Translations under genes and position numbers: made by a program
Shown: piece by piece, positions 7,016 through 43,574 of the stretch
Position numbering within the stretch: position 1 is the first letter of the stretch
Layout: every line of letters starts with the position of its first letter
NCBI RefSeq assembly: GCF_000264995.1
Contig: NW_006767433.1
Coordinates: forward strand, 4,508,967-4,572,966
Reading direction: 5' to 3'
Source: Punctularia strigosozonata HHB-11173 SS5
Lineage: Eukaryota; Basidiomycota; Agaricomycetes; Corticiales; Punctulariaceae
DNA: 64,000 nucleotides
The notes under the pieces: generated by a model
Seen by the model: only the letters and a program-made list of their open reading frames with translations
The model's database searches: none
Told to the model about the DNA's origin: nothing

Positions 7016-10000
7016 ATGCCCGCAGTCAATGCTACATCCACTGCTAAGCGTACGACGAGCTCGTCCGACAAGTCATCCACGAACGCGATGGATCGCCCAG
7101 AGGAGAAGGAGGTTCCAACTCCCTACGTGATATCTACCCACATTGGCAAAGGAAGCTTCGCAGACGTTTACAAGGGATATCATGGGGTCCGTCGATCCCG
7201 GTCCTCACCTGGATGCGCAGTTACTGAATGCACGATCTTCAGGAGACACACCAACAGGTAGCGATCAAGACAATAAAGCGCGACGGACTTACAACCAAAC
7301 TCCTGGACAACCTCAAGAGCGAAATAGACATTTTGAAATCACTCTCGCACCGTCATATCACAAAGCTGCTCGACATCGTCGTGAGCACAACCGATTTCCG
7401 TGGATGCTTCGATTCATTGTTCACATCATATATCACTTCAGCGTGGAGAGTACCGTATCTACCTGATCATGGAGTTCTGCTCCGGAGGCGACTTGACCAA
7501 TTACATCAAGAAACGCGGCCGAGTGGAGGGATTGGAATACATCCCTTCACCTGGAGCGGCTCCTCAGTACTATTCACACCCACGGACCGGAGGGCTGAAT
7601 GAGATTGTGGTACGGAGCTTCCTACGGCAGCTCGGTGCGTAGCCCGTCAAGCATGCGTCCCCCCAGCTAACTTACCCTTCAATAGCGCGCGCGCTCAAGT
7701 TTCTTCGTACGCGTAACCTTGTCCATCGTGATATCAAACCTCAGGTGATTTTAGTTTGCTTTATCGCTGAAAGTTTCGTGCTGAGCCACTGGTCAGAACC
7801 TGCTTCTGAATCCCGCCTCTCCCGAAGAGCTCGCCAGAGGACATCCACTGGGAGTTCCGATCCTGAAGGTCGCTGATTTTGGATTCGCTCGCTCGCTTCC
7901 CAACGCGATGCTCGCGGAGACTCTTTGCGGTTCACCGTCAGTCCACCCCTGATATCTCTTGAATGGCTGCTTACTTCGTGCGCGACGCAGGTTGTACATG
8001 GCGCCTGAGATTCTCCGGTACGAGAAATATGACGCAAAAGCCGATCTATGGTCCGTCGGCGCTGTATTGTACGAGATGGCCGTCGGTCGCCCGCCCTTCC
8101 GCGCCCAGAACCACATCGAACTTCAGAAGAAGATTGAGCAGTCGCGCAACGGACCCAAATTTCCTGACGAAGATCCTCGATATCAAGTAAACGCGGACGG
8201 GAAACTCGTAGACGGCAAGGGCGAGGAAGTGCAGAGGGTACCCGACGATGTGAAACAGCTCATCAGGGGCCTGCTGAAGAAGCTGCCCGCGGAGCGACTA
8301 ACGTTTGAGGAGTTCTTCAAGAGCACCGCGCTTGCGAAGAGCAAATTCCCGCGACCATCCAGAGAGCCAAGTCGGCAGGCTGAGCTTGAGGCGCAAGGGA
8401 CGGACCCAAGCATGCCGAACCAGCCTTGGCCGCAAGCGCCTGAACACCACAAGATCATTCCGCCGGAGGTTCTGGATCCGCATGCTGTCTTCCCTCCGTC
8501 CAAGTTCAATTTCCGGAGGACCTCCAGTACGAGCACGCCCCAAGCTATCCCACGGAGGATCAGTCCCGGATCTCATTCGCCTGCTGGAAGCCCGCCTTCT
8601 CGCCCTAGTCCATTGTCGCGGAGTCCATACACGTCGCCGAGACGGAACGTCGTCGAGCTGCCGACAGTGGAAGAACACGATGATTCGGGACCGAATACTA
8701 GACCGTTCAGCACCGAAGCCTCAATTATCGCCGGCGAGACTGATGAAGATGGTCAGCTCAGGAGGGAGTACGTTCTGGTTAGCGATACCAGGGCCGTGGA
8801 GTTCAATCGTGCCGTCGATGGCAAGTCTTACAACTGCCAGAGCGTTCGAGGGAAATAACCGACTTACTATCCACAGAAATAAACTCGGCTCGACGAGTAC
8901 CTTTGCATAGCAGACGGGTATCGATGCCACCGACACCAGACGGTATCGACATCCCGTCTACCAACGCCAACACGACTTTCCCACCTCCTCCATCTGCTCA
9001 ATCTCCTGGACATTATCGCACGCTCTCTTCCTCTCCTACGGCTGCTGCCTCACGAGCAGCGACGAACGCTCTTTCCCGAGCGCTCAACCTCGCGTCGAAA
9101 AAGCTCTTCGGCAATGGACCAAGGTCATCACCTCCCACTAGGGACACGTTTGTTTTCCCGCCTTCGCCGAGGCGGACGCAGCTCAACGTGCCCAAAGAAG
9201 AAGAACGAGACCCCGCAGAAGATTTGTTGCTGCAAGGTCTCGAAGAGCTTGCGCAGAAGACTGATGTCCTCACCAACTGGGCCGACGAGTTATACGAGTA
9301 TGTCAAGGCTATACCTCAGAGTAAGCTTTCTTGTGTTCTTATTAAACTAGAAACTCTATGTTGACCGTTTGTGCCCAGAGCCGTTGCCGGATCCGAACAA
9401 GTTCGCACCTCGATCAGGTGAATCAGAACGCCATGCCAATAGGCGGAAGATTGCGGACCAAGAGGCGGAGTCGAATGCCATCACGGCGGTTGCGGTGTAT
9501 ATGCTCGTCATGTCCTTTGCCCAGAAGGGCATCGACAAGCTGCGCGACTTCCAGGAACATGCGCGCATGCGCGATCCTGATGGATCCTTTGCTGCCAGCG
9601 AAGGCTTCGATGAGGGTAAGTTGCAGTTGAGTGTGCGTTCGCTCGAATTAATGGTCCCGATCGTTCCGCATAGCACTCGCATGGTATAAAGATCGCTTCC
9701 TGAAATGTGCCGATCGAGTGGCGTTAGTCAAGACTTGGCTGCCGACACATCATGAAGGGCCATCCGCCTATCTGTACCCCCTTGTCTATGAAAGGGCTTT
9801 GATGCTGGTACGCAACAACTGACGTGTGCATCGTCGTGGTATACTCAAATCCGCGTACAGAGCCGAACTGCTGCTCGCAAGGAACTGCTCGATCAACAAG
9901 TAGCACCTGACGAGTCCGAGAAGTTATACGAGGAATCTCTATGGTGCCTCTACACCCTGAAGGACGATCTTCTGCAATCTGGCAATCCGTTCATGGACGA

Positions 10001-10439: not shown

Positions 10440-11829
10440 CTAGTCATCTCCGTAATTGAGGATCTCGAAGTTACCATATCCTGTCGCAGGATCCTCTCCT
10501 ACTTTGCCACCTTGAATACTTGAGGTCCATCGTGCGTACGGCAATATCGGGCCGCCCGCGAGCGATACGGCCATTCTAGGGAGCACTAGTGAGCGTCGAA
10601 ATTTAAGCGGGGGATGAAACAATTACTGACGAGCTCATGTTGAAGACATAGTCCTCGCCGTTGATGGTATAAGTCACGACCACACCCACTTCCGAATCAT
10701 CGGGCGTGCCAACCAGCAAAGGCAGCTCGGTCCATATCTTGCCTCGAGTCTCGAGGGTGATGTGTTGCTGCGTATGTTCGGCGCCGTTTTGCTCGACACT
10801 ACAGAAGTTGACGATCTTCGTGCCGTCCTTGGAGAGGAAGCCCGAGGTGTACCATGTGTTCGGATCCGAAGCAGGGACGGAGGAGCCTTTGGGCAAGTAC
10901 GCGAAATACACGAAGGTGTAAGGCCCGACAGCGCCCCGGCCCCAGTACCATTGGTTGGTGTTCTCGCTGAGCTGCTTCATGCCAAAGTTGGAGTCGTGGT
11001 ATCCTGTTCCAATCACTCGTTAGTTCTATACATTGCGAGGAGTTGGTACATACCGTTGCCGGAGAACGTGTATGTTTGCTTCCCAACTGTCAGATGAGCA
11101 TCCCCAGTGGCACCCTGTGTGACACGCTATGAACGAACGATAATTCGGGTCGAAAAAGACTAACGGGTACTGCATTCGACCACCCGAGCCACGGGCCAAC
11201 TAGGTTGGGTGCAACAGTGGTACTGAAAGATGGGTCATTGGGCCTACCACGTATGTGAGTTAAGTGCATAACAGTGACATTGCGTAAGAGGTACATACTC
11301 GTCGCAGGGGTAATGCGGCGGGGTTGTCATATCCAACGTCAGGTTCCCGCTCACATACCCAAGCCCGTCTTCGAACCGAACAGTGTATTGCGAAGCCGTT
11401 GAGTTCCATCCACCCAGTCCAGGCCATGCTCCGTTGCTGTAATCGCCCACGGACTGACTAACGGACCCATATCCCGAGGCAAGCCCAAGAGTAACCAGAG
11501 AAGTTCCATTTGGTAGGGTCGCGCTGACTTGTATGTAGAACGGAACGGGAGACAGTGGTCCGAAACCGTATCCAGAGAAGTATACGATCTGAAGCGCGGT
11601 CCCTTCGTTGGAGAGGAGATCGAAGTACCTGTGAAAACGAGCCTATCTTTCTATGTTCCAACTCGACTGTGCAAGGCGAGGACACCTACCACCATTGCCA
11701 TGGATCCTGCACGGTGGTCTGCAGTTTCGCCAGAGGCACATGAGGGGCGTCGATGTACCCACTGTGCACCCCGTGAATCAAAGCCGCGATAAAGGCGGCG
11801 TAGTAGGCCCGGAACCCTTGCATGAACAT
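10440..11829 (-). CDS. Secreted CrtC/AttH lipocalin-like protein A (hydroxyneurosporene synthase/Diels-Alderase fold family)
   Basis: Begins at 11829 (or the second ATG at 11823) with a signal-like N-terminus (MQGFRAYYAAFIAALIHGV). After the first intron the hallmark WQWWYFDLLSNEG appears, the family's QWWYFD signature. Then NGAWPGLGGWNST, TVAPNLVGPWLGWSNAVP, GYHDSNFGMKQLSE, QWYWGRGAVGPYTFVYFAYL and the end LPYARWTSSI...NFEILNYGDD. Members of this two-lobed lipocalin family include bacterial CrtC and AttH, and fungal pericyclases such as Fsa2/CghA; most basidiomycete members have no known reaction. All frames rejoin, so it looks intact, about 370 residues. It diverges from P450 gene P1 and is the mirror partner of gene B at 22807-24180, with which it shares long identical words. 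Confidence 0.82.
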
Positions 11830-12683
11830 TTTTGCCGCTTTCATACGGTAGGGAGCGGGGTAAAGGGTGGTATTTTCCCTTAAGACGATGAAACGTCGGG
11901 CTTAAGTGGGTGATTCCATTTCTAGCGGAGAAAAGAAGGAGGACCGCGTGCCGCGGAGATCCGCATTAATAATGCAAGTCCGTTCGGGCAAACGACGACA
12001 GGATGTGGATAGCACATCGTGATGCAGCAGTAGCAGAGTGAAGCTTGAAGCTCGAAGATTCATGCAGACAAAGAGACAAAGTCGAACGCTAGAGCTCGGC
12101 AGCTCGGACCGTTGCCACCGGAGACGCGTCGCGTGGGTGTCAGGTGATCGTATTTTCGACATGCTAGATTGTAGACACTGACACTGACACTGACTGACAG
12201 TTGTGGTTTTACTTATCCTCGCCAGTCGGAAGCTTTGCAAACGAACACTCAGAAACAGCGAGAGCATCTGCACATGGGCGGTGATTGACTCATACGAATC
12301 GGTGCTAAACAAGTTTCATTGGGTATTCTGCTGAGCATTGACATGCACGTTTCGAACCATCGCTATCAGGACGGACCCGCTGCTCAGTGCTGCACCTACT
12401 CCTTACTCACCCATATTTACCAGCATGATATTGCACACATTAAACAGATTGCTAAAGGACAAGTTGGTGCTGTTCACGGATTAGGGGGAAATTTTCCTTG
12501 AAGCTTCATACTCTCCCGTTGTCTATGCGTCTTGTTCACGGCTAAACGGCTATTCGCACGGGCGAGTCTCCCGCCCGGAAATTCATCGCGGATCGCGGCT
12601 AATACGATGAAGGTTGTATATAAGCTCGCGGTACTCACGTCCCAGGCCGTTATACCAGACCAACGAGCTTAAGACTGCCAAGG
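11830..12683. promoter_or_regulatory. Divergent promoter region of lipocalin A and P450 P1
   Basis: About 850 bp between start codons of two outward-facing genes, so it must hold both promoters. A TATA-like TATATAAG is at 12617-12624, about 60 bp before the P1 start. A 136-residue open frame at 11902-12312 (minus) lacks protein-like features and is not called. Confidence 0.55.
12174..12199. repeat. Short (GACACT)n tandem repeat
   Basis: Three GACACT units followed by a degenerate GACTGACA, within the divergent promoter region of A and P1. Confidence 0.75.
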
Positions 12684-14711
12684 ATGACACCAGCAATGAT
12701 CCTCTATAGTGTAGGCGCCACCATCGCTGTATATGCGACATGGCAAGCCCTTTCGATCCTATGGGAACGCGCACGCTCCCCTCTGCGGAAGCTGCAAGGT
12801 CCGGCGAGCCCGAGCTGGCTCCTCGGCAACTTAGCCCAGTTATTCGCAGATGATCCAGGATCTGTGCAAGCCAGCTGGCTACAGCAGTACGGAACGACCT
12901 TCAAGATCAGCGGGTTCTTCAACGTAAGCGGAGTCCAGTTGCATTGACGCGGAGCAATGCTGATTCATTTTGCACAGCGGGACCGACTTTGTACAGCGGA
13001 TCCCCGCGCACTTAACCACGTCCTGACCCACTCCGCGGACTACCAGAAACCAGCATTTGCGCGCTATAACCTCAGCCGAATCCTCGGCGAGGGCCTGCTC
13101 GTGGCTGAAGGCGAGGCTCACCGTCGTCAGCGGCGTGTCATGAATCCCGCGTTCGGACCTGCGCAGATTCGTGACCTCACCGTCATCTTTCTTGAAAAGG
13201 CAACGCAACTGAGGGATGCGTGGCTGACCGAGGTGCAAAGCGCCAGCAGCGAAAAGCCTGTGAGGCTAGATGCCCTCTCATGGCTCAACCGAGCGACGTT
13301 GGACATCATCGGGCTCGCGGGATTCAATTACCAGTTCAACTCCCTTGACGGCGGGAAAACCAACGAGCTCAACCAGGCAATGACCACCATGCTCAAGGCG
13401 ACGGGTGGCACACGACTCTGGACGATCCTTCAAGCTCGCATTCCACCTCTGCGCTGGGTGGTCGGTCATGTCAATTCATCCTCATACTGCCTTAGCTAAG
13501 TTCGTCTGGCAGCGTACAGCACGGGATCGACACGTGGAATTTTCCCAGAATACGATGAAGCGCATTGGCTATGGTCTCATATCCGAAAGGAAAGCAGCAC
13601 TTCGCGCCGAGAAGCAAGGTGCATATATTGAGAAAAGCGACGTGCAAGGTAAATCCGCCTGCTGGTTTCTCTTAAATGGCGGCTTGAAGCTATCTGAATA
13701 GGACGGGATCTGCTTAGCCTCCTCGTCAAGGCCAATATGGCGGTCGACGTACCGGAAGATCAGCGCCTTAGCGACCATGAAATCCTCTCCCGTACGCGCT
13801 TTACCGTTTGCTCTCTCCTGCCGCGCTCCGTCTTATCAATTGTTCATGGGCAGAAATACCAACTTTCATGGTCGCCGGCCACGAAACGACGTCCACCGGC
13901 ACGTCTTGGGTGCTTTTCTCGCTGACCCAGGCCCAGAATGTGCAACAGAAGCTACGTGAGGAGCTTCTCTCTGTTCCTACGGACACACCCTCTATGGACG
14001 AGCTGGACGTTCTACCATATCTGGATGCCGTGATACGAGAGGCCATGCGCATACACGCGCCTGTGGGGGTGACAACGAGGGTAGCGATGAAAGACGATGT
14101 GATTCCGGTAAAGGAGCCTTATGTGGACAAGTATGGAAATATGCATTGCGAAATTCGGTAATACGTCCTGTTTCGTGACAACGTACATCGAGCTTACACT
14201 ATGCGGCATGCAGAGTCAACAGGGGTGATTTCATCCATATTCCTATCGCAGGTATCAATCACGCCAGCCATATATGGGGCAATGATGCCCATGAATTCAA
14301 GTGAGTAACCTCCCTGGTTGACTATACGCCTCGCCCTGACCACTCTGCACAGACCGGAGCGATGGTTGGAGCCAGGAACGATGCCAGAAGCCTTTTCACA
14401 TAATCCTGGTGTGTGGGGACACATGCTCACCTTCCTTGGTGGTCCGCGAGCCTGCATCGGATATCGTTTCTCTCTTGTTGAGTACGTGATCCCTTCCCCA
14501 AGCAGGAGATGGTCACTCAAGTCACATATCTAGGATGAAAGCAATTCTGTTCGTTCTCGTTCGCGCATTCGAGTTCACACTCGCTGTGCCCGCAAAGGAA
14601 ATCTCGAAGAAGTCTGCTGTGGTAACACGACCGACAGTCAAAGGCGAACCTGAGAACGGCAACCAGCTCCCTGTGTTCATCAAGCCTTACGCTCCCGACA
14701 CTAGGGTGTGA
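12684..14711 (+). CDS. Cytochrome P450 monooxygenase P1 (intact)
   Basis: A membrane-anchored microsomal P450. N-terminal anchor [19 protein letters not shown], then the proline-rich hinge [18 protein letters not shown]. Helix C region [20 protein letters not shown]. Helix [16 protein letters not shown] (oxygen-activating AGxxT). ExxR in [14 protein letters not shown] motif. Heme loop [13 protein letters not shown], with Arg and Cys present. It ends [10 protein letters not shown]-stop at 14711. About eight introns with clean joins, about 500 residues, the normal length. It shares NELNQAM and VLQARIP words with P4 rather than P2/P3, so P4 is its mirror partner. Converges on P2 with only 125 bp between stop codons. 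Substrate unknown; by position it may act with lipocalin A. Confidence 0.9.
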
Positions 14712-14836
14712 TCCATGTGTTCCTTCAGTTTAGTCATACGTCGTGGCTGTAGTCAGATTCTCGGCGAACAGTACTTGCGGTTTCGTGGGTAAGGATTTGC
14801 GTGTCACAAAGAACGTTGTAATTACTACAGAATACA

Positions 14837-16981
14837 TCAGCAGTTGATGACGGCTGGCCAACTGACGACAGTAATCTTCGCCTGGATATCGCTGGCAGAG
14901 ACCGCAAGATCGAACGTGAATGCACGGACGAGGATGAACAGTAGGGCCTTCATCCTGTAAGGTAACGTTTAGCGTCTGGGATACTCGTGACCATTCAACT
15001 AAAAGCACTCACTCCACCAGAGAGAATCTGTATCCTATACAAGCTCGAGGGCCACCGAGGAAGGTGAGTTGGTGTCCCCATACACCTGGTATGTTCGATG
15101 CGGTGTCAGGGAGCGGTTTCAACCAACGTTCAGGCCTATAAGACAAAGGATTAGATGATGCTCAGCTATGCGTCCCAAAAACTGACTTGAACTCATGAGC
15201 ATCCTCTCCCCAGATCTTTCCAGCCTGGTTGATGGCCGCGATAGGCACAAAGATGAGATCACCAGCAGTAACACTGACAGTGGGGTTTTGTAAGCCAGCC
15301 TAACAGCAAGCCTTATAATCTTACCGAAGTTCGGATAGCGGTGTACCATGTCTGTCAATAGCCGGCTCGCCCAAGGGTATAACGTCGTCGTGCTGAGCTA
15401 CTCGCATCGTGCCGGGTACAGGTGCGTAGACTCGCAGCGTCTCTTGTACAACAGCGTCAAGATAAGGGAGCGCCTGAAGATCGTCCATGGTAGGTGCCTC
15501 CGAAGGAACGGCCAGAAGTTCCTCACGCAACCTGCTTTGAACATCTTTGCTTTGGGTCAGGGCGAAAAGGGCCCACGTTGTGCCCGTACTGGTCGTCTCG
15601 TGGCCGGCGACCATGAACGTGGGGATCTCTGTGCGTTAAGTTGAGTATGATTGTCAGAAAGAAAGAGCGCGGGGATAAACTAACGTGTAAGAATCTCCTC
15701 GTCATTCAATTTCTGATCATCTGGGATGTCAACAGCCATGCTCGCCTTCACGAGTAAACTCAGGAGGTCGCGATCTGGACGACATCTCAACTCCTGGATA
15801 CATCATGGTGAGTCCATCGGAACCCACCTCGGACGTCACTCTTCTCAACACGAGCCCCATGATTCTCGGCACGTATCGCTGCTTTCTTCTCGGCAATCAA
15901 CCTATAGCCAATCCGTTTCATGGTGGCCTGCGCATACGCGATCTGGCGGTCACGTCTGGTCCGCTAGTATCTGACGTCAGAACAACAACAGCTATCTCGA
16001 CAAAAGAAGACCACGCACAACGAATCGCAGTATCGGAAAGCGACTCTGCATCAGTTCCAACACGCGCATCCGGTCGTTGGCGTGGAACATAGTAGCAAAA
16101 GCCGCGTTGAGTTCGTTGGGTTTGCCTCCGTCAAGCGATTCGAAGTGATAATCGAAGCTTTCGCGGACCTCGATATCAGCAGTGCGCGATTTCATCATAG
16201 TTTCTTTATGACCTACCAGCAAGCCCGATGATGTCCAAGGTTGCCCGACTGAGCCAAGATAACGCGTCTACTCAGACTGGGATCCCGTCGACGACCTTCC
16301 TGGTCTCGGTAATCCAAGCATCGCGCAGCTGGGAGGCCTTATCGAGGAATATCGGGGTCAATTCGCGCACTTGCGCAGGACCAAATCCGGGGTTCATGAC
16401 ACGTCGTTGTTTGCGATGATGCTCGCCCTCGGCGATGAGTACTCCTTCGCCAACAATGCGCGCTAAGTTATTCCGTCCCATCGCAGGCTTCTGATAGTCA
16501 AAGGAATGTGTGAGGATATGATTTAATGCTCGAGAATCTATGGTGAAGACACGGTCGCGCTAAGGTGGGCATGGTCGTCAGTACGCTGTCAATGTCAGAG
16601 CAAATACGCAAATACCGACTCACTCCAAACAAGCCTCTGAATCTGAATGTTGAACCGTAAGTTTGCACCCAGTGTTCTTGTGTACGCGCTCCTGGATCGG
16701 CACTCAACTGGCGAATGTTGCCAAACAACCAGCTCTCTCCCTTGGGGCCCGCCAAGTGGCGCAACGGCGAGGTCCACTTCTTCACCCAGCTCGAATATTT
16801 TCCAGGAGGCGTAGAGCGTAACGACGGCGCAGATAGATAGGACGAGACTGAGTACTATTGTACATCCACCGGGTAAAGCATGAGCTATTTGAAGACGATG
16901 TCCGCTTGTACTGCCGGGGTGAAAGACCAGCGGATGTACGAAGGGCGTTGTAGGCGTGATGTTCAATACGGCCAGAAGCAT
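14837..16981 (-). pseudogene. Cytochrome P450 P2, degraded copy
   Basis: Same family as P1 and P3, with [64 protein letters not shown] (ExxR) and [17 protein letters not shown] all readable. Three defects are visible. A one-base excess in the CCC run at 16785-16787 puts the membrane-anchor part and the SPLRHLAGP part in different frames. A TGA at 16272-16274 stands where P1 has Arg in [10 protein letters not shown]. The C-terminus stops at 14837-14839, lacking the conserved GNQLP...IKPY tail. The start codon is also unclear; 16981 is the first ATG of the anchor frame. It is closest to P3 ([18 protein letters not shown]). Sequencing error could explain one defect but hardly all three. Confidence 0.8.
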
Positions 16982-16989
16982 CGTGTGTA

Positions 16990-18356
16990 CTGGACTTGGC
17001 CCTGCGCCGCGTCAGGCTAGCGCTCGCTTCGCGAGCCGCCAGCCCAACCTCCACTTTCATCCTCGCAAGGGTTCCCGTGTCCCTCTCCGCGTCCGACGAG
17101 GCTGGACGCGGACGGTTGGTGACTGGTCTCCAGTGTCGGGCTCATTCCGCCGCCGCCCCGCGCCGTAAGCGGATGCAATCTTCACGTCCTTTGTCTGCAC
17201 GCCCTGCAATAGCGGCAGCATCCCGAGGTTGCCAGCGGCAGTTTGCCGGAAACTCTCTCTACTTACGGTAAGAGCAAGTACGGCAAGGTATGAAATGAAC
17301 ACTCTTAAGCATGCTCAATCGCTGTTAAAGCGTGGTATATGTCGGATCCTGTTCCTTCCGTCAACCAGGATTACAGTCCCTGGCCGAGGCTCCAGGCACC
17401 GATTGTGATATTTCTTCAGCGGAAGCTCAGACGCAAACGACTACGAACTCAAACGCGCGCTATGTGTTTTGCCGCAGGGTTTTGCTCGCTGCGAGCTCAA
17501 TCCTGGTGGTCAAAAACCCGCGAAAGCACCGCGTGCGATTGATCAGCGCTTCAGCCGTCAAGCCGAAAAGTGCGATCAACACCTGCAATTGTGAATGAAT
17601 GGGTGTGAGTGCTTTGCAGTTGCACAGCAGCGATGGCCCAGCAACGACGATATCGATGTATAGATCCTGCACCCGCTTTGAGTCGGTTCGCGTTTAGTCG
17701 ACGCCCTGCGCCTGTTCCCATACCACATTTCCTTGCCTAGACCCATCGGAGAGCTTAGGTACTTCCGTGGGTCCATGGTACAAGGGTTATCAATATCCTG
17801 GCTTCTTCCCGCATAGGAAGCGACCCCCGACGATGAGGTGGTGTCGCTGACATGCAATAGGTACTACTTAGGTACTGCGCAATGCAGCTTCCTGGGGTTG
17901 AGGAAGGTACTCTTGGACTTCAGCAACCGCGACATCCATTGATTGATTTATGCGGTTTCATCTCCTAGGTTCATAATGGCCATTCTCTCCGCCTCAAGTA
18001 GTACGATATCGGCTTGGTTATGCTACAGACTGGCCGCAGGGGATCGTGGAGCGCGTGGGAGTGCCTTTCATTACCTGACCTTCGCAACACCTTGCGAAAC
18101 CCTGAATACATGGAGTAAGCTCGAAATAGCTTAAATGGAAGCGAGCGCGTGGATTGCTGGAAGCTATAGTATGTATGCGCGCTGTTCTCGCTGTCTCGGC
18201 CGACAACCGCGTCAGCGCGGAGTAATCTGGTTCTATCTGGCTTCAACACCTGGTTGCCTATGTACCTTTTCATGCCGACTCGGCTTGACCCCCGCGGCTC
18301 TCTCTCATAAATATTGGCTCGCGGCATGATGGACGAAACACTCGCTGCCTTGTGTG
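16990..18356. other. Centre of the mirror-image P450 block; no gene seen
   Basis: This 1.4-kb region separates the outward-facing P2 and P3 and contains the symmetry axis of the A-P1-P2 / P3-P4-B block. Open frames on both strands (for example 17971-18513 minus) overlap without protein-like features. A possible TATA-like CATAAATATT lies at 18306-18315, about 45 bp before the P3 start. A zinc-cluster-type CGGCCG is at about 18198. Confidence 0.5.
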
Positions 18357-20443
18357 ATGGCGACGCTACAGCTGTTCTGTGCAACTGTTGCAGTTGCGTT
18401 AACCTACGCTGCATGGACGTTTGCCAAGGAGCTGCTTCGCCGCTTATCTTCGCCGCTGAACGTTCTATCTGGCCCCGCGGGTTATACATGGACGACTGGC
18501 AATTTTGCGCCAATGGTTCAGGGCAACCCTGCGCTGCTCCAAGAAGACTGGGTTGATCAATACGGCAGCACCTTCAAAATCAAAGGCTTTTTCGGGGTGA
18601 GCACGTACCTGGAACTCAATCAATGGCCAGCATTAACACGGATTTCTCGTAGCTTGATCATTTGTTTACCATTGACCATCGGGCGGTGAATCACATCCTT
18701 ACGCATTCCTTTGACTTCCAGAAACCACCGCAGGGCCGAGAAGCCTTCAGTCGCATCGTTGGAGAAGGTCTACTAATCGCCGAGGCGGATGCACATAGAA
18801 AGCAGCGCCGTGTGATGAATCCCGGCTTTGGACCTGCACAAATCCGGTCTCTTGCCGCTGTATTCATCGAGAAATCCATGCAGTTGCGTGATTCCTGGTT
18901 CGTGGAGATTAGGAATGCCGGAGGAGGCCACCGCGCGCGAATCAATGCATTGTCATGGCTCAGTCGCACCACGCTCGATATCATTGGCATCGCAGGTGCG
19001 CTTCAATTTCAGTGTCGTCATCGTCATCGCTTCAATATGTGGCCAAGGTTTCGATTACCATTTCAATACACTGAACGAGAGCGACACGCCAAATGAACTC
19101 AACGAAGCATTTGCGACCATGTTCCGGGGAACGGAGGAATTGTCAGCATGGCAAATGCTTCGGGATCGATTCTCCCTTTTTCGGATCGTCGTACGTGCTC
19201 GCAATCGTCATTCCCTGCGCCAAGACCTTATTTTTTGTAGCCCAATGATCGCGAGAGGCAGATCGCTTTTGCTCAGAGAACTATGAATCGTATCGGTTAC
19301 GAGCTCATTGCCGAGAAAAAGGCGATGGTTCGGGCTGAAAAGCACGGTGCACATGTTGCACGAGATGATGTACAAGGCATGACAAGGGCGTCCTCTTCTC
19401 TAATCATCAGCTGACTCCAGTAAATGGTCAGGGCGAGATCTTCTAAGCCTCCTAGTCAAAGCGAACATGGCTGTGGACTTTCCCGAAGATCAGCGTCTTA
19501 GCGACAAGGATATCCTCGCTCGTCCGTCTTCCATATGCATGGTATCCGGCTCGTTCTGATTGATCCTATTTTCCCAGAGATCCCCACTTTCCTTGTTGCC
19601 GGACACGAAACCATCAGCACTGGGACTACGTGGGCCCTGTTTGCGCTCACGCAGCGGCCTGATGTCCAAAGTAAGCTTCGTACGGAGTTGCTCACCGTAC
19701 CCACCGAGACCCCGACCATGGACGAGCTGCAATCGCTGCCCTACTTGGACGCGGTCGTACGGGAGACGCTGCGTGTGCATGCCCCGGTGCTTGGTACTAC
19801 TCGCATAGCAACGCGTGACGACGTTATACCGGTCAGCGAGGCATACGAAGATAAGAATGGTGATACCCGTACTGAAATCAGGCGAGTCTCGACGCACTGT
19901 GGCTCAACGTCAATAATTCATCGTTACTTGCTAAAGAATCGCAAAGGGGGATATGGTCTTCATTCCCATCATCGCGATGAATCAAAGCAAGCGCATATGG
20001 GGAGAGGACGCTCACGAATTCAAGCATGTTCTGACTTGCTCGTGATCTGGTTCATGGCTGACGTAGCGGTATGCAGACCCGAACGATGGCTCGTATCAAT
20101 GCCAGAAGGGCCATCGAGTATCCCCGGAGTTTGGGGGAACCAGCTTACCTTCTTGGGCGGACCGCACGCATGCATTGGATACCGATTCTCAATCGTTGAG
20201 TGAGTTCTGCCCATTCGCTGTTCGTCATATCATGGAAATTGATATTCTCACGACAGGATGAAGGCATTGTTATTTGTTCTTGTTCGTGCATTTGAGTTCG
20301 AACTCGCGGTGCCGGCGGTAGAGATTGAGAAGAAGTCATCCATCGTCACACGACCCGTCGTAGCCAGCGAACTAGAGAAAGGAAATCAGCTGCCTCTCTG
20401 GATTAAACCATACTCCGGACTGCGACTGGAACAGTTGCGTTAG
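18357..20443 (+). CDS. Cytochrome P450 monooxygenase P3 (intact)
   Basis: Start chosen at the ATG of 18357 ([20 protein letters not shown]), which gives a normal membrane anchor. Landmarks in order: [53 protein letters not shown] (helix I), [11 protein letters not shown] (ExxR), PERW, and heme loop [13 protein letters not shown]. The heme-loop Arg of FxxGxRxCxG is His here, a change tolerated in many P450s. It ends [13 protein letters not shown]...LR-stop at 20443. Around nine introns, one (19522-19577) with a GTCCGT donor; all frames rejoin. Closest relative in the window is the broken P2, its mirror partner. It converges on the truncated P4. Confidence 0.88.
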
Positions 20444-20646
20444 ATGAATAGTCAGAAACCTCATTTTCGCAAATTGTTGCATAAAGCGGCATCTTCATCA
20501 TGCCCGAGTGACGGTCGTTGTTGAGATTGGAAACGGTGGCTGAACATTGCTTTCGAGGTATGGGTCAGGTATGGGAAGGAGATTGTATCGTGTAAAAAAC
20601 CGATTATGTCAATATGCGCTGTAAAATCGGTGGCCATTCGCTCAGA
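20444..20646. other. Gap between convergent P3 and truncated P4
   Basis: About 200 bp where the 3' half of P4 would be expected. I see no trace of helix I, ExxR or heme-loop coding sequence on the minus strand. Confidence 0.6.
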
Positions 20647-21636
20647 TTATGGGTCAGTGACATCCCCCTTCTCAACATGGGCACCGTGCTTCTCGGCGCG
20701 TACGGCAGCTTTCCTCTCAGAGATCAGACGAAGTCCAATGCGCCTCATAGTGTTCTGCGCAAACTCGATTTTCCGGTCCCGGTTTGTGCGCTGCAAAATG
20801 GGTGAGGACGAGACAGACCTCGAGGAGGGATGAAGGGACCCAGAGATGAAGGGACCCACAATCGAGCGTAAAATCGGGATTCGTGCCTGGAGGACCGCGA
20901 AGAAGCGCCAAGTACCGGTGACATCAAACATCGTTGCCATGGCCTGGTTGAGTTCGTTGGGTTTACCACCCTCGAGGGAGTCGAAGCGATAGTCGAAGCC
21001 GGCGAGACCGATGATATCCAGCGTCGTTCGGCTTAACCACGACAGCGCGTCCAGCTTCATCCATTCACCGTCCCCCTGCTTCCTCGCCTCGCTAAGCCAC
21101 GCGTCGCGCAACTGCGCGGCCTTATCAAGGAAGATTCCAGTGAGATCGCGGATCTGCGCCGGTCCAAAGCCGGGATTCATGACGCGGCGCTGGCGGCGGT
21201 GCGTGTCGCCTTCGACAATGAGCAGACCCTCGCCGACTATGCGGACGAGGGTATAGCGCCCCATAGCCGGCTTTTGGAAATCGGAGGAATGGCTCAGAAC
21301 GTGGTTCAAGGCCGGGGGGTCGATGGTTTGCAGTCGATTACTCTGCAACCGGTCAATTTCCACACCGCGACGCGTCCAGCACGCAATGTAACTCACGTTG
21401 AACACTCCATGAACCTTGATTGTGGTACCATATTGCTTGTGCCAGCTGTCTTGCACGGTTCCGGAGTCGCCTGTGAGTATCTGCCCGAAGTTGCCGTAGC
21501 ACCAGCTTGGACTCGGTGGACCCTTGAGATGGCGCAACGGGGACCGGACTCGGTGCCGGATCTCGGCGAGAATAGCCCATGCCGTATAGATGGTGACGGC
21601 AACCCCTCCGGCGCAGACAATCCAAGTAAGAGTCAT
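20647..21636 (-). pseudogene. Cytochrome P450 P4, 3'-truncated copy
   Basis: The 5' half is well preserved: anchor MTLTWIVCAGGVAVTIYTAW, hinge [53 protein letters not shown], and on to [14 protein letters not shown]. It then reaches a stop at 20647. The next expected exon (the [10 protein letters not shown] segment) and everything after it, including the oxygen-binding helix, ExxR and the heme cysteine, are absent, so no active P450 can be made. Introns expected after GVFN and after LRSIV stay open when read through. It is closest to P1. The breakpoint lies only 200 bp from the P3 stop, suggesting a deletion between convergent genes. Confidence 0.82.
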
Positions 21637-21669
21637 CGACCCGATACGACCAGTGGTGCACAACTGTAG

Positions 21670-22806
21670 AATGATGTGTGCGGTTCGTCGTTTTGGCTAC
21701 GGTGTGGTTGCCGAGGTTACTTATCACACCGTGCGCATTGTCGATCACTCGACATCCCGTGGAGAAGATTATCTTTTGTAGCTGCGCCCCCGACTGTGCC
21801 CGCGGTTTTGCACAAAGCGTAGGGGCGAGATGACTAAGCCACTCAGAATCCGGTTGGGCCAATCAAATCAACGAATCCGCCAACGAAAACCGTCTAGTGC
21901 GTAGCATCGTAGCCGCCGAGCGGGAGCGTAAGGCCCAAGGACCAGAGAAAGCAGAGGAAGGCGGTACTTGCTATACACCTCCTTATAAAAATCATTGCCA
22001 GTCCTTATTGCACGTGCCGATTCCCGAAGCCTCGCACTGCACCGTTCGATATACCCGCTTGTGGGTAGATGCGTCCAAGTTGACATTATCTAAGTAGTAT
22101 TAGTAGCCGTGCCGGCGCCGTCGCGAGAGGCTGGCAGGGATCATTGCGCAAAGCTAATAATGAATAACCTTGACTAATGGCCTGCTCAGCTGACGAGGCG
22201 AACCCCAGGATATCCAAAGGATGAGACGATGTGGCTACGATGTTCGTTCTACGGAAGAGAGGAAGAGGTTCAGAAGAGGTTACAAGAAGGATTGAACGCT
22301 GGCCAGAGCGCAACCGGACATCAAGGGTCGCTGTTCCGGTGTCCGGCCCGAAAATATTCTTCGTAATCATCTCCGCCCTCGTCTACCGTCTTGGGTGGGC
22401 CCGTACCTTCCTGCAATGTGCAACAGTCTGCAACCTCCGCACGCGTTCAGGCAACTTGACGATGGAACGGATCAATCAGCAGCCAGTCGCTAAGACGTAT
22501 CGTTTCGTCCGACGCCACGAGGTTCCCGGACGCGCCATAAAGCGCCTATCTCGCTTGCCCCTGCTAAACGTAGTCTCCACAGGCAGCCTTTAGAGTGAGA
22601 AGACAATCGTTCTCACAATAGAGTCTGCAACTCTAACCCCTAACGCGTAAACGAGTTTAAACTGTTTTCGGCCCTCGCCCTCCCGATGTTTGTGCCGTGT
22701 TCCTGGACTAGGCGATGCCCCCTCGCTGTCGAAGCTGGAACCTGACGACTGTATTTAAGGGCGCGCATCCGACGCAGGTTCCGAGCGCTACCCGCACCTT
22801 CGCAAC
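21670..22806. promoter_or_regulatory. Divergent promoter region of P4 and lipocalin B
   Basis: About 1.1 kb, mirror counterpart of the 11830-12683 region. TATTTAAG at 22752-22759, about 50 bp before the start of B, is a likely TATA element. No gene seen; the open frame 21353-21862 (minus) overlaps P4 coding sequence. Confidence 0.5.
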
Positions 22807-24180
22807 ATGCTCAGGGTTGTCGCATCATTTGTTCTGATCCTATGGACAGCATGCGCCTCGGGCACCTATCTAGACGGGCCGCATGTTCCGCTGGCCACCG
22901 CCAACTCCACGGCGGAGGATCCCTTCCAGTGGTGGTGAGTTTGCACTCATTCAATCGAGAACGCTGTCACCGATCGTGTCCTCAGGTACTTTGATCTCGT
23001 CGCAGACTCTGGATCTGCGTTGGAAGTCGTTTATTACTCCGGCTACGGTTTCGGCAACTTCGTCCCCGTTCCGTACTACCTTCAAATCACGTCTACGGTC
23101 CCCAACGGCACACACTTTGGACAGTTCGCCGTCTCGCCTGGTTCTGCCACAGTTGAACATTCCACGGGTGCATTCAGCAACGGCATTTGGCCCTCTCTGG
23201 GTGGATGGAACTCGACTCGGCGAGGCTATGTCGTGACGTTCCAGAATACGGATGGAACAGTATCCGGGAACTTAACGCTCGATGCCGTTGCACCAGCCCA
23301 CTATCCGTGTGACGGGTTTGTTTCCACCAGCGATCCTGCTAGGCTATCTTGCTGATCAAGATGAAGGTCGGCGGACCCCTCATTTAACACAACTGTCGCC
23401 CCGAACCTTGTTGGACCCTGGTTAGGCTGGGCAAACGCTGTTCCTGTGTGTTGCGGTACCTAGACTTGAGTTCATCAGACTCACTTCAAGCAGGGAGCGA
23501 CAGCAACTGGGTTCCTGACCTTAGGCAACGAAACATTCTCCTATTCAGGATCAGGTAAGATGATTCGGACGGTCGCCCTTCACTCTGCTCACCGACGAAC
23601 AGGCTACCATGACTCCAACTTTGGCCTGAAGCAACTCTCTGAGACAGCCAACCACTGGTATTGGGGTCGTGGTCGCGTCGGCCCTTACACGTTGGTCTAC
23701 TTCTCCTACCTGCCCAAAAATTCGTCCGTACCCGCCACGGACCCGAATGCCTGGTACACGTCGGGCTATCTATCCCTCGACGGCGTCCAGATCCTCGACT
23801 TCTGCAGCGCGGAGCAGAGCGTGGCCGCGCACGCGAAGAAGCACCTTGCGATCGAGACGTCGGGCGCGATTTGGAGCGAGGGACCGGACGTGGTCGGCAA
23901 CCCGGATAATTCGACCGTCAGCATCGCCGTGACCTACTCCCTCAACGCAGCCGAGTATAAGTTCAACATGACCTCGTGAGTAACACACACATGGTCTACT
24001 CTGCGAAGTTATTCTCCCTTGTACTGAGATCCGCGGTCGGACAGAATTGCTGTGGGGCTTGCGGGATCGCCCTTGGTTCCGTATGCCCGCTGGACGTCTT
24101 CGATCACCGGTGGCAGAGTCGGCGGAGAGACCTACACAGGAGGTCGCGGGTTCTTCGAGCTCCTCAACTACGGGGAATGA
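22807..24180 (+). CDS. Secreted CrtC/AttH lipocalin-like protein B
   Basis: Signal peptide MLRVVASFVLILWTACASG, then DGPHVPLATANSTAEDPFQW and WYFDLVADSGSALEVVYYSG with the family QWWYFD signature across the first intron. Further landmarks NGIWPSLGGWNST, GNLTLDAVAPAHYPCDG, TVAPNLVGPWLGWANAVP, GYHDSNFGLKQLSE, HWYWGRGRVGPYTLVYFSYL and the end YARWTSSI...FFELLNYGE-stop at 24180. The middle looks broken at first, but four introns restore frame (for example GTTTGT...GATGAAG before the SADPSFNTT exon). It looks intact. It is a close paralogue of A in the opposite orientation; intron positions correspond. Family members rearrange or hydrate polyene-type substrates, but the reaction here is unknown. 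Confidence 0.83.
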
Positions 24181-24464: not shown

Positions 24465-26111
24465 CTAGCCGTTGATCACCTCATCCGCACTACTGACATC
24501 TCGCCCTTCTCGGTCAAGCTGTATCTTCCGTTTCTTGTCCTCTTTCTTCACTTCTTGGTCGCTCAGGATCTCCGCGCCTTCCAGAACACCGTCGCCATCT
24601 CGATCCTGCATATGCAAACCTGCCTTCTCGGCGTTTCCCTTGCCTTCGCCGGTTGAAGCTGAGGCACTTGGGGTGTCGTTTTCTTTCCGCGGTTCAGCCT
24701 CGCGCTTGTGTTCGTCGTAGTCGGCCGCGATCTTCGCAATTTCGCGCTTGACCTGTTTTGCTTCGTTGACAAGCTCGATCCAACGGTCAATGTCAAATCT
24801 GTGATCGTAGGGGCCGATGAGTGTTATGTAAACTCGCGGGAAAGGAGCAGATGAGCAACGCACCCGTGGGCTCGATAGAGGGCCTCGCGATGAGCTGATA
24901 TTGATCGGTCGAGCACAGAGGCGTATGATACTTCGCGACCTTGGTATAAGAACCTGCCGGCACATTTGGTCAGTTATTGAGCGTGGGTGCCGAGGAATGG
25001 ACATGCCAGAGATAGCCTAGGATGACCATGGATAGGCCTGAGAGATACGTGACCGGCTCCATGACGTCCCTGACCAATGCGTTCGTCAGCGTGAGTCCCC
25101 GCCGTCCTGTCAGCGGCGTACTAACCAGCCAAGGTCCCAGAACGTCAATCTCGCCACTACTCCCCAATATACCACGAGCATGGCCAACCCGCCCACAGCC
25201 AGCGATCTCGCGCTACGGTGCGCCTCAGAATCACACTTCTTCTTCAGCGTTTCCATCTCCTTCAGCTCGCGCCCAATAATGTCCAGCCGCCGGCGGAGAT
25301 ACCGTGTGCGGTCCGCGAACGTCGGCACCTCAACTTCGATAACGGTATCCTGCAGTCCATCCACTTGATTTGACTCGCCTTTAGGGTCCTTCAGTTGGGG
25401 GCTTACACCGACGGCGGGGATGGGGGAATTGCTGATATGTATCCAGAACTCACGCGCGCTCGCGGCGTCGCGGGCGAAATCGGCGACGTCAGTCGCGTCG
25501 CTCCATTGGAATTCAGAACCGGTCGTGGGGGACGTGCTTCTAAACGTTATTGAGGGCGTAGCCGGCGCGAGTGAGGCAAGGATTAGGCGAGAGACATGCG
25601 AGAGCGGTTGCGACGGGTGAAGCAGGAAGACAGTGGGCGGGGCGGGGGATGACTCCTCGTTCTTGCTATTGTAACGCGACGAGAGGTGGCCCAAGGGTAG
25701 TATAAGTTTGAAGAGGTGGGTAGAGGTCGGAGACAATTTCCCTGACGCTGCGTGTTATAACGCCATATCGATGACACCGAGCATGTGCGGGTTTCACGTA
25801 CCCTTTCCTGGTTTAAGATCCGCAAAATGCTCCTCCGCCTCCTCAATGCCTTTCAGGGCGCCCTCGTTGTCGATATCATCTTTCCAGCGCGTTCGCGGAC
25901 TCGCTTCGTTGATGAACCGCGAATGGCTGACGTTCGTGTTCTCGACGTCTGCTGACATTGCTTTGTAGGGAGGCTCAGTCGAAGCATATCTCCTGAACTG
26001 CAGTCGAAAGGACTCTCGTCGGGATCTCCAGAGCGTAGGCGCTAGTCGTCGCGGTAGCCAGATATACGTTCGAGCCCGGGCAACTTCAGTTGCCAATGAC
26101 CAGGGGCACAT
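24465..26111 (-). CDS. MCU: Mitochondrial calcium uniporter pore subunit with C-terminal EF-hand-like loop
   Basis: The N-terminus has a basic mitochondrial presequence (RRESFRLQFRRYAS). The matrix domain starts SGKLSPTSTHLFKLILPL. After a coiled-coil-like RTRYLRRRLDIIGRELKEME comes the first membrane helix (SLAVGGLAMLVVYWGVV), LTFWDLG, then the selectivity motif WDVMEPVTY. The Trp codon of that motif is split by an intron. The second helix is LSGLSMVILGYLWFLYQGR. The end (FDIDRWIELVNEAKQVKREI) is typical, but the tail continues with DRDGDGVLEGAE (genomic 24570-24605), matching an EF-hand loop at all calcium-ligand positions, and a charged end. One intron (24954-25006) is GC-AG. Length about 430 residues. 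The gene is back to back with bL28m. Confidence 0.88.
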
Positions 26112-39773: not shown

Positions 39774-39791
39774 ATGAAACGCGGTCACGTG
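39774..39791 (+). promoter_or_regulatory. Conserved ATGAAACGCGGTCACGTG element upstream of K1
   Basis: Identical 18-mer upstream of K2, and a variant (ATGAATCACGGTCACATG) upstream of K3. It contains the bHLH-type palindrome CACGTG and also opens a short reading frame (MKRGHVV), so it may be a regulatory site, an upstream ORF or a 5' exon. Confidence 0.4.
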
Positions 39792-39969
39792 GTGCGCAAC
39801 GAGCACAAAGGGAACCGTATGGCCACGGTTCAACGTTGTGGCATCTCACCACCATCAAGCTTGGTGGCTCTCTAATGGACGCCTCGCTCTGCCTCTGGGT
39901 AGAACAAGCTTCTTCCCATACAGTGAGTTTCCGCACTCCTCACCCAGTTCAACGCTCGCTTACTTGGCC

Positions 39970-42326
39970 ATGGCTTCTCGCCACTCCACCCCACCTAGGG
40001 TTACGCCCGGACCGACCTGCACCGTTTCGTCTACCCCCATCAGAGCTAGCAACTCCTTACGAACACAATCCAGCACGAAATCTGTCACCAAGGATTGGAC
40101 GAGCCGCGCTATTCATACGGAGCTGAAAGGTGCCATGATCGAGGACGTGCCCGGACTTGTCGAGAGTGTATTTCCGTCGGAGTCTGTGCCGTTAAATCTT
40201 CGCGAAGCGATGGCTGCTGTGAGGAAAGACGGCTTGTACAATCGCAGAAGATGGACTGACTGGTCGTCCTTGCCGAAGTCCCGGAAAGGAGACCGGGATT
40301 CTGCGGTATGCGATCTCCTGAACCAAATAGTCGACGTCGCCGCCAGGAAGTGCAGGCGGACCGCCAGCTCGTCTATACCTCGCCGGAAGTGGACCGGCTA
40401 TTCCGCCACGGAACCCTGTCAGAGTATACCCGACGGTGTTTTGCTTCCGCATGATGTTCCCCCCAGTACCGTCCAGCGACGTCATGCCTGCGCCTTTCTC
40501 GAGATGAAATTTCGAAAAGAAAGCAAGGGTGGCAGCAAGTCCTCGGTGAAGCTCAAGGAAAACGCTCGATTGACTTTCGGCGCTCAGTATGACAGGCGTT
40601 TCATTCTTGGGCTTACCTTGGTTGGAATTTCCATGCGTCTTTGGCGATTCGATCGGTCGGGTGTTCTTCAATCTCGACAGTTCAATATCCACACGGATCC
40701 AGAACGACTCCTTCGCGTTCTTTGCGGGTTCGCCTTCGCGGATCCGGTCACTCTCGGCTACGACCCCACCTTCACTGAGCCTGACTCGACCGGCTTCCGT
40801 TCGGTCCACGTTTGTGGGAAGAAGTACAAAATACGAGACGTGCTACACATCGACGATACGCTGAGAGGCAGAGGCACTATCATTCTCAAAGTTCGCTCGG
40901 ATGATGATCAAACAGCGATCATCAAGGACTCGTGGATCGACGTCAGCCGTTCTGAAAAAGAATGTGACATCCTCAAAACCGAGAAGGCCAAGAAGACAGA
41001 GGGGATTGTGCACATGGATGACTACGAGAGGGTTCAAGTCGATGGCGTTATAGACTCTACAGCCATCATACGCTGCAAAGTCGATGCTGCCCCAAAGAAA
41101 GTGCAAAAGAAGAAGAAGAAAGGACGGAAGCCAGAGATACGGGAGCATTATCGACTCATCCTGCGCGAGCACGGGGTATCGTTGACACACTTTGCGACAC
41201 GCCGAGAACTGCTCAGCGTCCTAATAGACGCTATAGAAGGTACGTGACTATCCTCCCGTCATACGCGCCGTTTAATGGTCTCATGATCATGCCGTAGCAC
41301 ACAGGCGGATGCGCAAAGACTGCCATGTCTTGCATCGCGACATCAGTTTCCACAACATCTTGATCTCCGAATTTGAAAACCTCGCCCCGGGACTACGCCG
41401 GGGCAGACTCATCGATTTCGATTACTCCAAAACTCTGACAGAGTCCACTGGCAATGAAGGAGAAGACAAGAATCACCGATCGGTGGGTCGTTTGATTCCA
41501 TCCCATCGCTTGCGTTCTGATCGTGGATTTGCTTTTTCAGGGAACGTTGCCCTTCATGGCCGTGCAACTCCTCATCTACAATAGCGCAATAGAACATAAG
41601 GTGCATCATGACTTACAATCCTTCTTCTACGTCCTCTGCTGGGCTTGTATCGTGCTGGAAGGACCGGGACAAAACCGACGGCGATTTGATCCCATGAAGA
41701 CCAAGCTCAAAGTGTGGATGGTGGGCGATGATGAAGAGACTATAGGACTGAACAAATCTGGCCAAATGCGGAGCGATATCGCTTTCGAGAAATTGCTCGA
41801 GGACTTCCATCCGTACTTCGAGGAGCTGAAGCCCACTGTCAGGGAGCTTCGGCGGGTCTTCAGAGTGGACGAGTGGGAGAAACCCGATTACGATCCCCCC
41901 GATTACGACGATATCCTGACGATACTCAAGGCTCGGCGCGACGCATTACCGCTTGTTGAAGTACCCGTACCAAAGGCAAGGAGTAATCGGCGTAGAAGAG
42001 CGCCCGAAGGCCTAGCTGCCGGAGTTATTCCGAGGGGGCAGAAGCGCAGCCGCCAGGAAGCCGAAGAGGAGAGCGGCGAACAGAACGCCGAGGACAAGGA
42101 CGATGAGGGAGAGGACGAGGACGAGGACGAGGACGAGCAGAGTGATGAGGAGCAAAGTGATGGGGAGCAAATCGATGACGAGGAGGAGGATGAGGAGGAT
42201 GACGACGACGATGACGAAGAAGAAGATGATGGCCTTAGCGAAAGCAGCAGCGGCAGCGGCAGAGATCACGATAGCGATGAAGACTTCAAGCCAGCGGTCA
42301 GGACTAAACGCAGGCGGCACTACTAA
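39970..42326 (+). CDS. FunK1-type fungal protein kinase K1
   Basis: A fungus-specific kinase-like family expanded in mushrooms. The N-terminal part carries AIHTELKGAM, KWTGYSATEPCQSIPDGVLL, FLEMKF, KENARLTFGAQYDRRFILGL and LHIDDTLRGRGTIILKVRSD. The kinase core has IIKDSWIDVSRSEKECDIL (ATP-binding Lys region), VLHRDISFHNILIS (catalytic loop HRDxSxxN), LIDFDYSKT (in place of DFG) and SGTLPFMAVQLL. A conserved ALPLVEVP word precedes the tail. Two introns (near 41240 and 41486). The tail has a nuclear-type RSNRRRRAPEG and a long Asp/Glu run (about 42075-42240) ending TKRRRHY. About 750 residues. Start 39970 gives MASRHSTPPR, matching K3. The DFD variant is usual for the family. Confidence 0.85.
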
Positions 42327-43108
42327 GATTGCACATACAATTTCTCAATGCCTCTCGCTCTTCCTCGAAGACAGGGTAATACGTGCTCGATTATATATCA
42401 TCACAACGCTAGCTATATTCTTGATATACATTCTCCTCATTTTATGTACTGTACACCGCAATATGTAGAGTATCAGTGTTACAAGGACGATCCCTGACAC
42501 ATAAATATTGCTGCTCCCTCTGGGACATGCTGTCGTTGAGCCCCGTAAAATTTCAACTGGTAAAGCAGCCAACCGCTGCATTGGAGATTGTAGACTTCAT
42601 GGAGTTTGGGGACTGCCGTAGTTTCCCTGTCTCGAAAATAACATCTGCGAGCATAGGTGAGTCGGAGGAGTTGTCGGCATTGTACCGAGCCTGAGCCTGG
42701 CTTCGGCCGTTATCGCGATGCCTTCGGGGCCTGACATGCAATGGATATGGGGTGACGAGAACGGGGTGAAGAGTCGCTTACCAGTAGATGAGTATCCGTC
42801 GTAATTCATATCAACCCGGACGACGACTAGCCGAGAACGCGATTTTGCGCATGATCACGAAAACTCACATGAAATGGGTTCGTCATGGTGAACGTTCTTC
42901 AGTTGACATATGCCATCACTACTTCTCCGGTGCCAGCGGCGTGCCTTCAATTTATACGGTATGAATCCTCCTGGCTGAGAGTGGGCCATGCAATCCTGGT
43001 AGTCAGTCAACGTCCTTAGAGCTGGTTGTTATCGCCCTAGCAGCTCGTATTCTGGCCGTAAGTAACATCTTTCTGGCAGAGATTACCTAGGTCTAAATCC
43101 GTAGGAAG

Positions 43109-43123
43109 GTCGATCTTATCGAC
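43109..43123. promoter_or_regulatory. Perfect dyad GTCGAT-CTT-ATCGAC upstream of K2
   Basis: Identical to the K1 site at 39557-39571 and at a similar distance (about 230 bp) from the downstream CACGTG element. Confidence 0.4.
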
Positions 43124-43338
43124 GACCTTAACATCGTCCTCAGTGGCTCAGTCTAAAACGTGTGCCTGCACAGCCTCATAATGACGAAAGCGCCGACATC
43201 CTTGCTCTCACACCCTTCTTACCTTATAAGCGTTTATAATGGTGAAGCACATCAGCGTAAGTTTGTATAGCATGACGGTCTGTCGTCGAGAAACTAGAAA
43301 CTACTGATAAAACGGACGCTTAGGCACACCCTCGCACA

Positions 43339-43356
43339 ATGAAACGCGGTCACGTG
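43339..43356 (+). promoter_or_regulatory. Conserved ATGAAACGCGGTCACGTG element upstream of K2
   Basis: Identical 18-mer to the K1 element. In K2 it lies only about 65-70 bp before the aligned kinase coding start, against about 196 bp in K1, so about 130 bp are missing between them in K2. Confidence 0.4.
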
Positions 43357-43574
43357 GTACACAACGAGCACAACACCAGGGAACACCGTGGTCTGACCAG
43401 TGACCACGCTTGTGCCACCCCACCAGGACGACCCCGACAACGAGCAGTGCTCGTACGAGCTCGAATACTCCTTGGAGAGCTCGCTCAACTTCCGGCTTGA
43501 ACACACGCTCTGGCAGACAATCGGTTACTCGGGTTTTGACGCATCGCGCCATCACCATCGAACTCAAAGGGGCT

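Follow-up and report, generated by a model that had tools for sequence, protein, structure and literature searches.

The subject of this analysis is a block of six genes in mirror order, which lies within a 64,000-nucleotide stretch (the window) of the genome of Punctularia strigosozonata HHB-11173 SS5, bases 4,508,967-4,572,966 of contig C1 (4,672,437 bases; the whole assembly has 33.57 Mb in 32 contigs). Four of these genes, P1 to P4, encode cytochromes P450 (P450s) of one subfamily, intact or broken, and they are enclosed by two AsqO-like genes, A and B. The explanation that we favor, with modest confidence, is that the block is a small and partly decayed P450 cluster that has grown by local duplication and by movement of genes between chromosomes, and whose P450s could share with A and B the chemistry proposed below. 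An initial annotation had described it as an inverted duplication, its two arms being reversed copies of one another, and as a possible undescribed metabolic system. The data do not establish the arms as reversed copies, since the pairing of P1 with P4 is rejected, that of P2 with P3 is weak and no mirrored intergenic DNA was found, and the metabolic system is unproven, with two of the four P450s dead as read. The features of the block are the following (labels such as C1, C9, C10 and C17 are contigs, and P450 genes elsewhere in the genome are named after their own contig).

10440-11829, minus strand: A, AsqO-like / Diels-Alderase-fold protein, about 372 aa, 6 exons (spliced model, Pfam)
12684-14711, plus strand: P1, intact P450, about 547 aa, 7 introns (spliced model; Pfam p450 E 7e-65)
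14837-16981, minus strand: P2, P450 pseudogene, outer limits approximate (spliced model)
16985-18335, no strand: axis region (the genome search found itself alone)
18357-20444, plus strand: P3, P450, probably intact (spliced model needing two GC-AG introns)
20647-21636, minus strand: P4, truncated P450, N-terminal half alone, 285 aa aligned (spliced model)
22807-24180, plus strand: B, AsqO-like / Diels-Alderase-fold protein, 368 aa, 6 exons (spliced model, Pfam)

Condition of the six genes

The gene models are spliced alignments, made with a simple gap penalty and no transcripts, to a P1 or A model that had been read by eye; as P1 and A themselves served as the seeds, their own exon borders are not independent. 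Intron 2 of P1 is two columns off the position seen in all paralogues, and this border is probably misplaced and uncertain by about two residues. The models agree with the order and strands described previously, A(-) P1(+) P2(-) P3(+) P4(-) B(+), but not all six genes are intact; the breakage of P2 and P4 had gone unseen.

The P450 models were checked for the I-helix (AGHET), ExxR and heme (FxxGxxxCxG) motifs, as generally known for these enzymes, all required in an open frame. P1 has an open frame with AGHETT, EAMR (ExxR) and the heme motif. The same holds for P3 (AGHETI, ETLR and the heme motif), given two GC-AG introns, the donors of which (GCATGA and GCATGT) sit where the paralogues use GT donors. 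Two such introns in a single gene look unusual and could be a sign of early decay. P2 retains the I-helix, ExxR and heme motifs, but its frame is broken near 16.79 kb and interrupted by a TGA stop at 16272-16274, and its C terminus is cut short. P4 stops before the three motifs and is devoid of all of them. As read from the DNA, P2 and P4 cannot be working P450s, and the set of genes that look intact comprises A, P1, B and probably P3. The nearest solved structures to the P450s are plant carotenoid hydroxylases (LUT5, E 1.5e-37), a distant relationship only.

Origin of the mirror order

Comparison of the block with itself gave inverted DNA matches for the three mirror pairs, P1-P4 (E 3e-69), A-B (1e-48) and P2-P3 (1e-29), but there were also matches across non-mirror pairs (P1-P3 direct, 6e-27; P2-P4 direct, 3e-25; P1-P2 inverted, 9e-25) and none outside the genes. 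With the six gene spans masked, no self-similarity was found within 10.0-25.5 kb in either orientation at E <= 0.01, although the loss of intergenic similarity is expected at such an age under either history. We considered and discarded an inversion driven by a repeat located at the axis, no second copy of the axis having been found in the genome. Genome matches of the spacer between P4 and B were just one of 70 nt on C19 and one of 44 nt on C6; a short dispersed repeat is located here (22564-22633, 70 nt, 94% identical to C19:58477-58545), part of it 89% identical on C6.

Several of the words shared by the mirror pairs turned out to be less specific than the initial annotation had assumed. 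HRRQRRVM is also present in C9, C17 and C10, WALFALTQ in C9, C17 and C1b, DYHF in C9 and NELNQAM in C10, and VLQARIP is not common to P1 and P4, as P1 reads ILQARIP. In favor of the annotation, HRKQRRVM and AFATMF are restricted to P2 and P3 among the 16 P450 models described below. Mixed strands are a feature of 5 of the 11 P450 groups scored, this block included (same-strand matches up to 1.2 kb apart were merged and then grouped within 10 kb, cut-offs of our own choice). P450 counts are lower bounds, with 79 of 125 candidates scored in one search and 92 of 266 in another; the strand survey drew on the latter, which missed P4, and the block counts there as three genes. With the positions of the two A-type and four P450 genes taken as given, an estimate of chance made after the fact gives 1/8 for opposite strands in the three pairs and 1/3 for the order alpha-beta-beta-alpha (alpha being P1 and P4, beta P2 and P3), together about 1/24, a rough figure that makes the symmetry noticeable, not compelling. 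The locus cautions against taking words and strand symmetry that paralogues have in common as proof of an inverted duplication.

A way to approach the history of the block is to place its P450s among their relatives elsewhere in the genome. Twelve P450 loci outside the block were modeled together with the four inside (16 models), and trees of 13 and 11 rows were built; the fragments C2 and C8 and the distant C10b are in neither tree, and the long-branch C2b and C3 are in the first alone. P1 has nine modeled relatives at 53-74% identity (P2, P3, P4, C9, C17, C10, C6a, C1b and C3b), the closest being C17 (74%), while P4 is closest to C10, on another contig (78%, versus 62% to P1). P4 and C10 appear as sisters in both trees (support values 100/100 in the first and 100/99 in the second), and the sisterhood of P1 and P4 is rejected by the approximately unbiased (AU) test (p 0.00056 and 0.000465, respectively). 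The grouping of P2 with P3 is weak (60/40 and 48/11), and trees with P2 or P3 nearer the other clade are not rejected (p 0.34 and 0.485). The tree that the initial annotation had named as contrary to its proposal, P1 with P2 and P3 with P4, was not found either, and both tandem sister pairs are rejected (AU p 0.0033 and 0.00007). The same is true of a single local expansion, with the four block P450s in one clade (p 3e-6), and of a clade of P2, P3 and C1b (p 0.003).

Over the 238 columns common to eight rows, d(P2,P3) is 0.65, d(P1,P4) 0.48 and d(P4,C10) 0.25, and P2 is nearer C17 (0.49) and P1 (0.58) than P3. The P2-P3 distance exceeded that of P1-P4 in 98.8% of 5000 bootstraps (P 0.012), or 98.5% when scaled to C1b (P 0.015), which we take as mild evidence against a single event, P2 being a pseudogene. 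Differences at fourfold sites are 0.62-0.75 across the seven within-block pairs computed and lower, 0.51, between P4 and C10.

Pieces of P450 genes are also dispersed in this genome. A fragment on C2 (L055, C2:334000-343000) matches, over 858 nt and at 95% identity, the central part of the C17 gene (L051, C17:546500-555500) and is a recent dispersed piece of that P450. On C8 (L059, C8:716500-725500), a stretch of 645 nt matches the C9 gene (L050, C9:1641000-1650000) at 90% identity, over the end of that gene and the flank downstream of it, and is joined directly to 131 nt that in C9 are found upstream of the gene. This piece is a copy of the C9 locus with a large internal gap. The C9 P450 gene is itself without the ExxR stretch.

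Two further observations concern these loci. The intact C17 P450 is adjoined by a flavin-binding monooxygenase-like gene (L051 6467-8044, minus strand; FMO-like E 4e-11), possibly another oxidative pair, and the flanks of the C2 and C6 P450 loci have in common a 368-nt stretch at 91% (L055 8181-8542 and L053 5317-5682), perhaps a mobile element.

If the block grew piecemeal, the mirror order would be made up of a duplicated A/B pair on the outside and, between them, four P450s of one subfamily on alternating strands, with P2 a dead gene and P4 a defective copy derived from the C10 lineage. The alternative is that a module of three genes, A-alpha-beta, was duplicated once and inverted, that the alpha copies were later moved to C9, C17 and C10 and that P2 and P4 decayed; we regard this as possible but rather unlikely. 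It accounts directly for the mirror order and strands, for the near-equal amino-acid identities of the three pairs (A-B 60%, P1-P4 62%, P2-P3 62%) and for the failure to find a third AsqO-like gene in the genome. Two observations weigh in its favor and against piecemeal growth. Both trees unite P1, P4, C9, C17 and C10 in one alpha clade that excludes P2 and P3 (100/100), and these five genes share the absence of an intron after the LAG motif that is kept in P3, C1b, C6b and C3b. This pairing of outer and inner genes is also compatible with an ancient inverted duplication and later dispersal. C6a, outside the alpha clade, is without the LAG intron as well, and P2 has intron-like DNA at that place; the retention of an ancestral intron is no evidence that P2 and P3 are sisters. 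A single inversion would, on the other hand, require three exports, and has to contend with P4 being closer to C10 and P1 to C17 than they are to one another, with the weak grouping of P2 and P3 (P2 being nearer C17 and P1), with the larger P2-P3 distance and with the lack of any intergenic trace. We favor growth and movement because P1+P4 is rejected, the distances are unequal, the genome disperses P450 pieces and mixed strands occur in other P450 groups too, and we give it roughly double the probability of a single inverted duplication with three later exports.

A and B and the proposed chemistry

A and B both contain the Pfam domains DA_N (E 1.6e-16 and 2.3e-14, respectively) and AsqO_C (E 8.2e-16 and 6.5e-19) over the cut-off. 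The likeness between them reported initially was borne out, with 60% amino-acid identity over 361 codons and, at the DNA level, an inverted match (387 nt, 70%). A has a hydrophobic N-terminal segment, four N-glycosylation sequons and two cysteines. B has a signal-like N terminus and nine sequons, together with the two cysteines common with A and one more inside the signal-like segment. Hydropathy suggests that both proteins carry a signal peptide. A search of the whole genome with AsqO_C, DA_N and the A protein found no third locus besides A and B, although it ran exon by exon and strongly diverged copies could escape. It is plausible that A and B are local duplicates, each being the only kin of the other found within this genome. 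By sequence, solved structures gave one chance-level match each way (E 0.28 and E 1.3), and among viral and prokaryote contigs there were 49 and 55 pattern matches to A/B, none confirmed; these collections contain no fungal genomes and are uninformative about fungi.

The chemistry that we propose starts with the membrane P450s, P1 or P3, which would oxidize, and probably epoxidize or hydroxylate, a hydrophobic alkene, e.g., a terpenoid or polyene. The activated product would then be opened, cyclized or hydrated in the beta-barrel pocket of A and/or B, sent along the secretory pathway; the catalysis would be of acid type, like that of AsqO on epoxides. Secretion, substrate, reaction and the joint action of the P450s with A and B are all inferred. 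There are precedents for the separate steps. According to PMC9814574, AsqO and PenF transform epoxides as Bronsted acid enzymes, according to PMC9055775 lipocalin-type Diels-Alderases shape polyene substrates in their pocket, and a P450 epoxidase with a separate ring-forming enzyme is known in the ascofuranone pathway (AscE/AscI; PMC8827043, in part). In the sordaricin pathway, P450s build the substrate of the Diels-Alderase SdnG, which is unrelated to other pericyclases (passages of PMC9095873).

Several facts speak against this proposal. The active site of P450s faces the cytosol, while proteins with a signal peptide enter the lumen of the endoplasmic reticulum; lying on opposite sides of that membrane, the P450s and A/B do not have a coupling that can be taken as given. 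On contig C1 there was no match to the terpene-synthase family PF19086 (0/14) or the ketosynthase family PF00109 (0/15), in a search that did not extend to nonribosomal peptide synthetases (NRPSs), prenyltransferases, other terpene-cyclase families or other synthases. AsqO itself is part of an NRPS-derived quinolone pathway. The epoxide of aspoquinolone and penigequinolone comes, according to the available passages of PMC8827043, from a flavin monooxygenase (AsqG/PenE) and not from a P450, so that no P450 partner is implied and the analogy of A and B with AsqO is loose.

Two other readings concern function only and are compatible with either history. In the first, the block would serve to detoxify or degrade hydrophobic compounds of foreign origin, plant extractives for instance, with A and B binding or hydrolyzing the oxidized products extracellularly or within the secretory pathway. 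The contig without PF19086 or PF00109 matches is in keeping with this, as are the 9,967 bases to the left of the window, where the 6 open reading frames tested (of 18 listed) matched no Pfam family, and the expansion of fungal P450s has been tied to degradation in Phanerochaete chrysosporium (PMC1184071, in part). We think it rather unlikely, all the same, as the AsqO and lipocalin-type Diels-Alderase examples act in biosynthesis (excerpts of PMC9055775 and PMC9814574). The second is that there is no joint function at all, A/B and the P450s being neighbors by chance in a decaying gene nest. The two dead P450s would agree with it, and so would C9, C17 and C10, which have no AsqO-like gene beside them, none having been found outside the block. 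This reading, too, is rather unlikely. No AsqO-like gene was found in the 33.6 Mb other than these two, each of which stands next to P450s of a single subfamily, and the frames of A, B and P1 remain open.

The joint chemistry that we propose has a more speculative variant, a scaffold-free system in which a P450 would form a reactive epoxide from a hydrophobic compound, imported or host, and a duplicated pair of secretory AsqO-like enzymes would convert it in two ways, e.g., into two stereoisomers or ring forms. The duplication would have given parallel branches, of which P2 and P4 would be dead parts. We consider this distinctly improbable.

Surroundings and comparison with known systems

The P450/AsqO-like block is bracketed by two genes of housekeeping type, and many short introns and a GH5 C-terminal domain were also noticed in the window.

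7956-9361 (tested stretch), plus strand: ATG1-like protein kinase, left neighbor (kinase domain over the cut-off)
25113-25736, minus strand: mitochondrial calcium uniporter (MCU), right neighbor, one exon (Pfam search)

The ATG1-type MIT domain of the left neighbor is slightly under the cut-off (20.2 versus 22.5 bits). Farther to the right, at 39778-45737 on the plus strand, there are two adjacent fungal-type protein kinase genes alike in layout, the first identified by Pkinase_fungal (E 5e-59) and the second assigned by eye.

Among known proteins, A and B can be compared with three groups. The first consists of AsqO and PenF, from the quinolone alkaloid pathways of Aspergillus and Penicillium, AsqO_C being over the cut-off in both A and B. 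With the lipocalin-type Diels-Alderases (CghA, Fsa2, Phm7, MycB and PvhB) they share DA_N over the cut-off, but DA_C is under it (25.7 and 22.3 versus 27 bits) and their contig has the negative PF00109 result given above. The carotenoid 1,2-hydratase CrtC has a local match of 43 residues in A (E 2.7e-6) and matches B too. The identification of A as CrtC is ruled out, at 26.9 bits against an NCBIfam equivalog cut-off of 400.

Among the matches listed in the open-licence literature we recognized no paper on a pair of AsqO-like genes with P450s, and the accessible part of PMC11375781 contains nothing on AsqO. If A and B do act on P450 products, AsqO-type epoxide chemistry would be extended to proteins with a secretory signal and also to a fungal locus without a terpene or polyketide synthase (the two classes searched) on the same contig. 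For the moment, the locus serves chiefly as a clear case of the birth and death of P450 genes, ordinary in kind. The P450 clusters of P. chrysosporium are made up likewise of local duplicates, not all on the same strand; copies have been translocated and introns vary (PMC1184071, in the passages available). What sets the block of P. strigosozonata apart from them is the AsqO-like gene at both of its ends. Such a pair at the ends of a P450 cluster is, to our knowledge, less usual.

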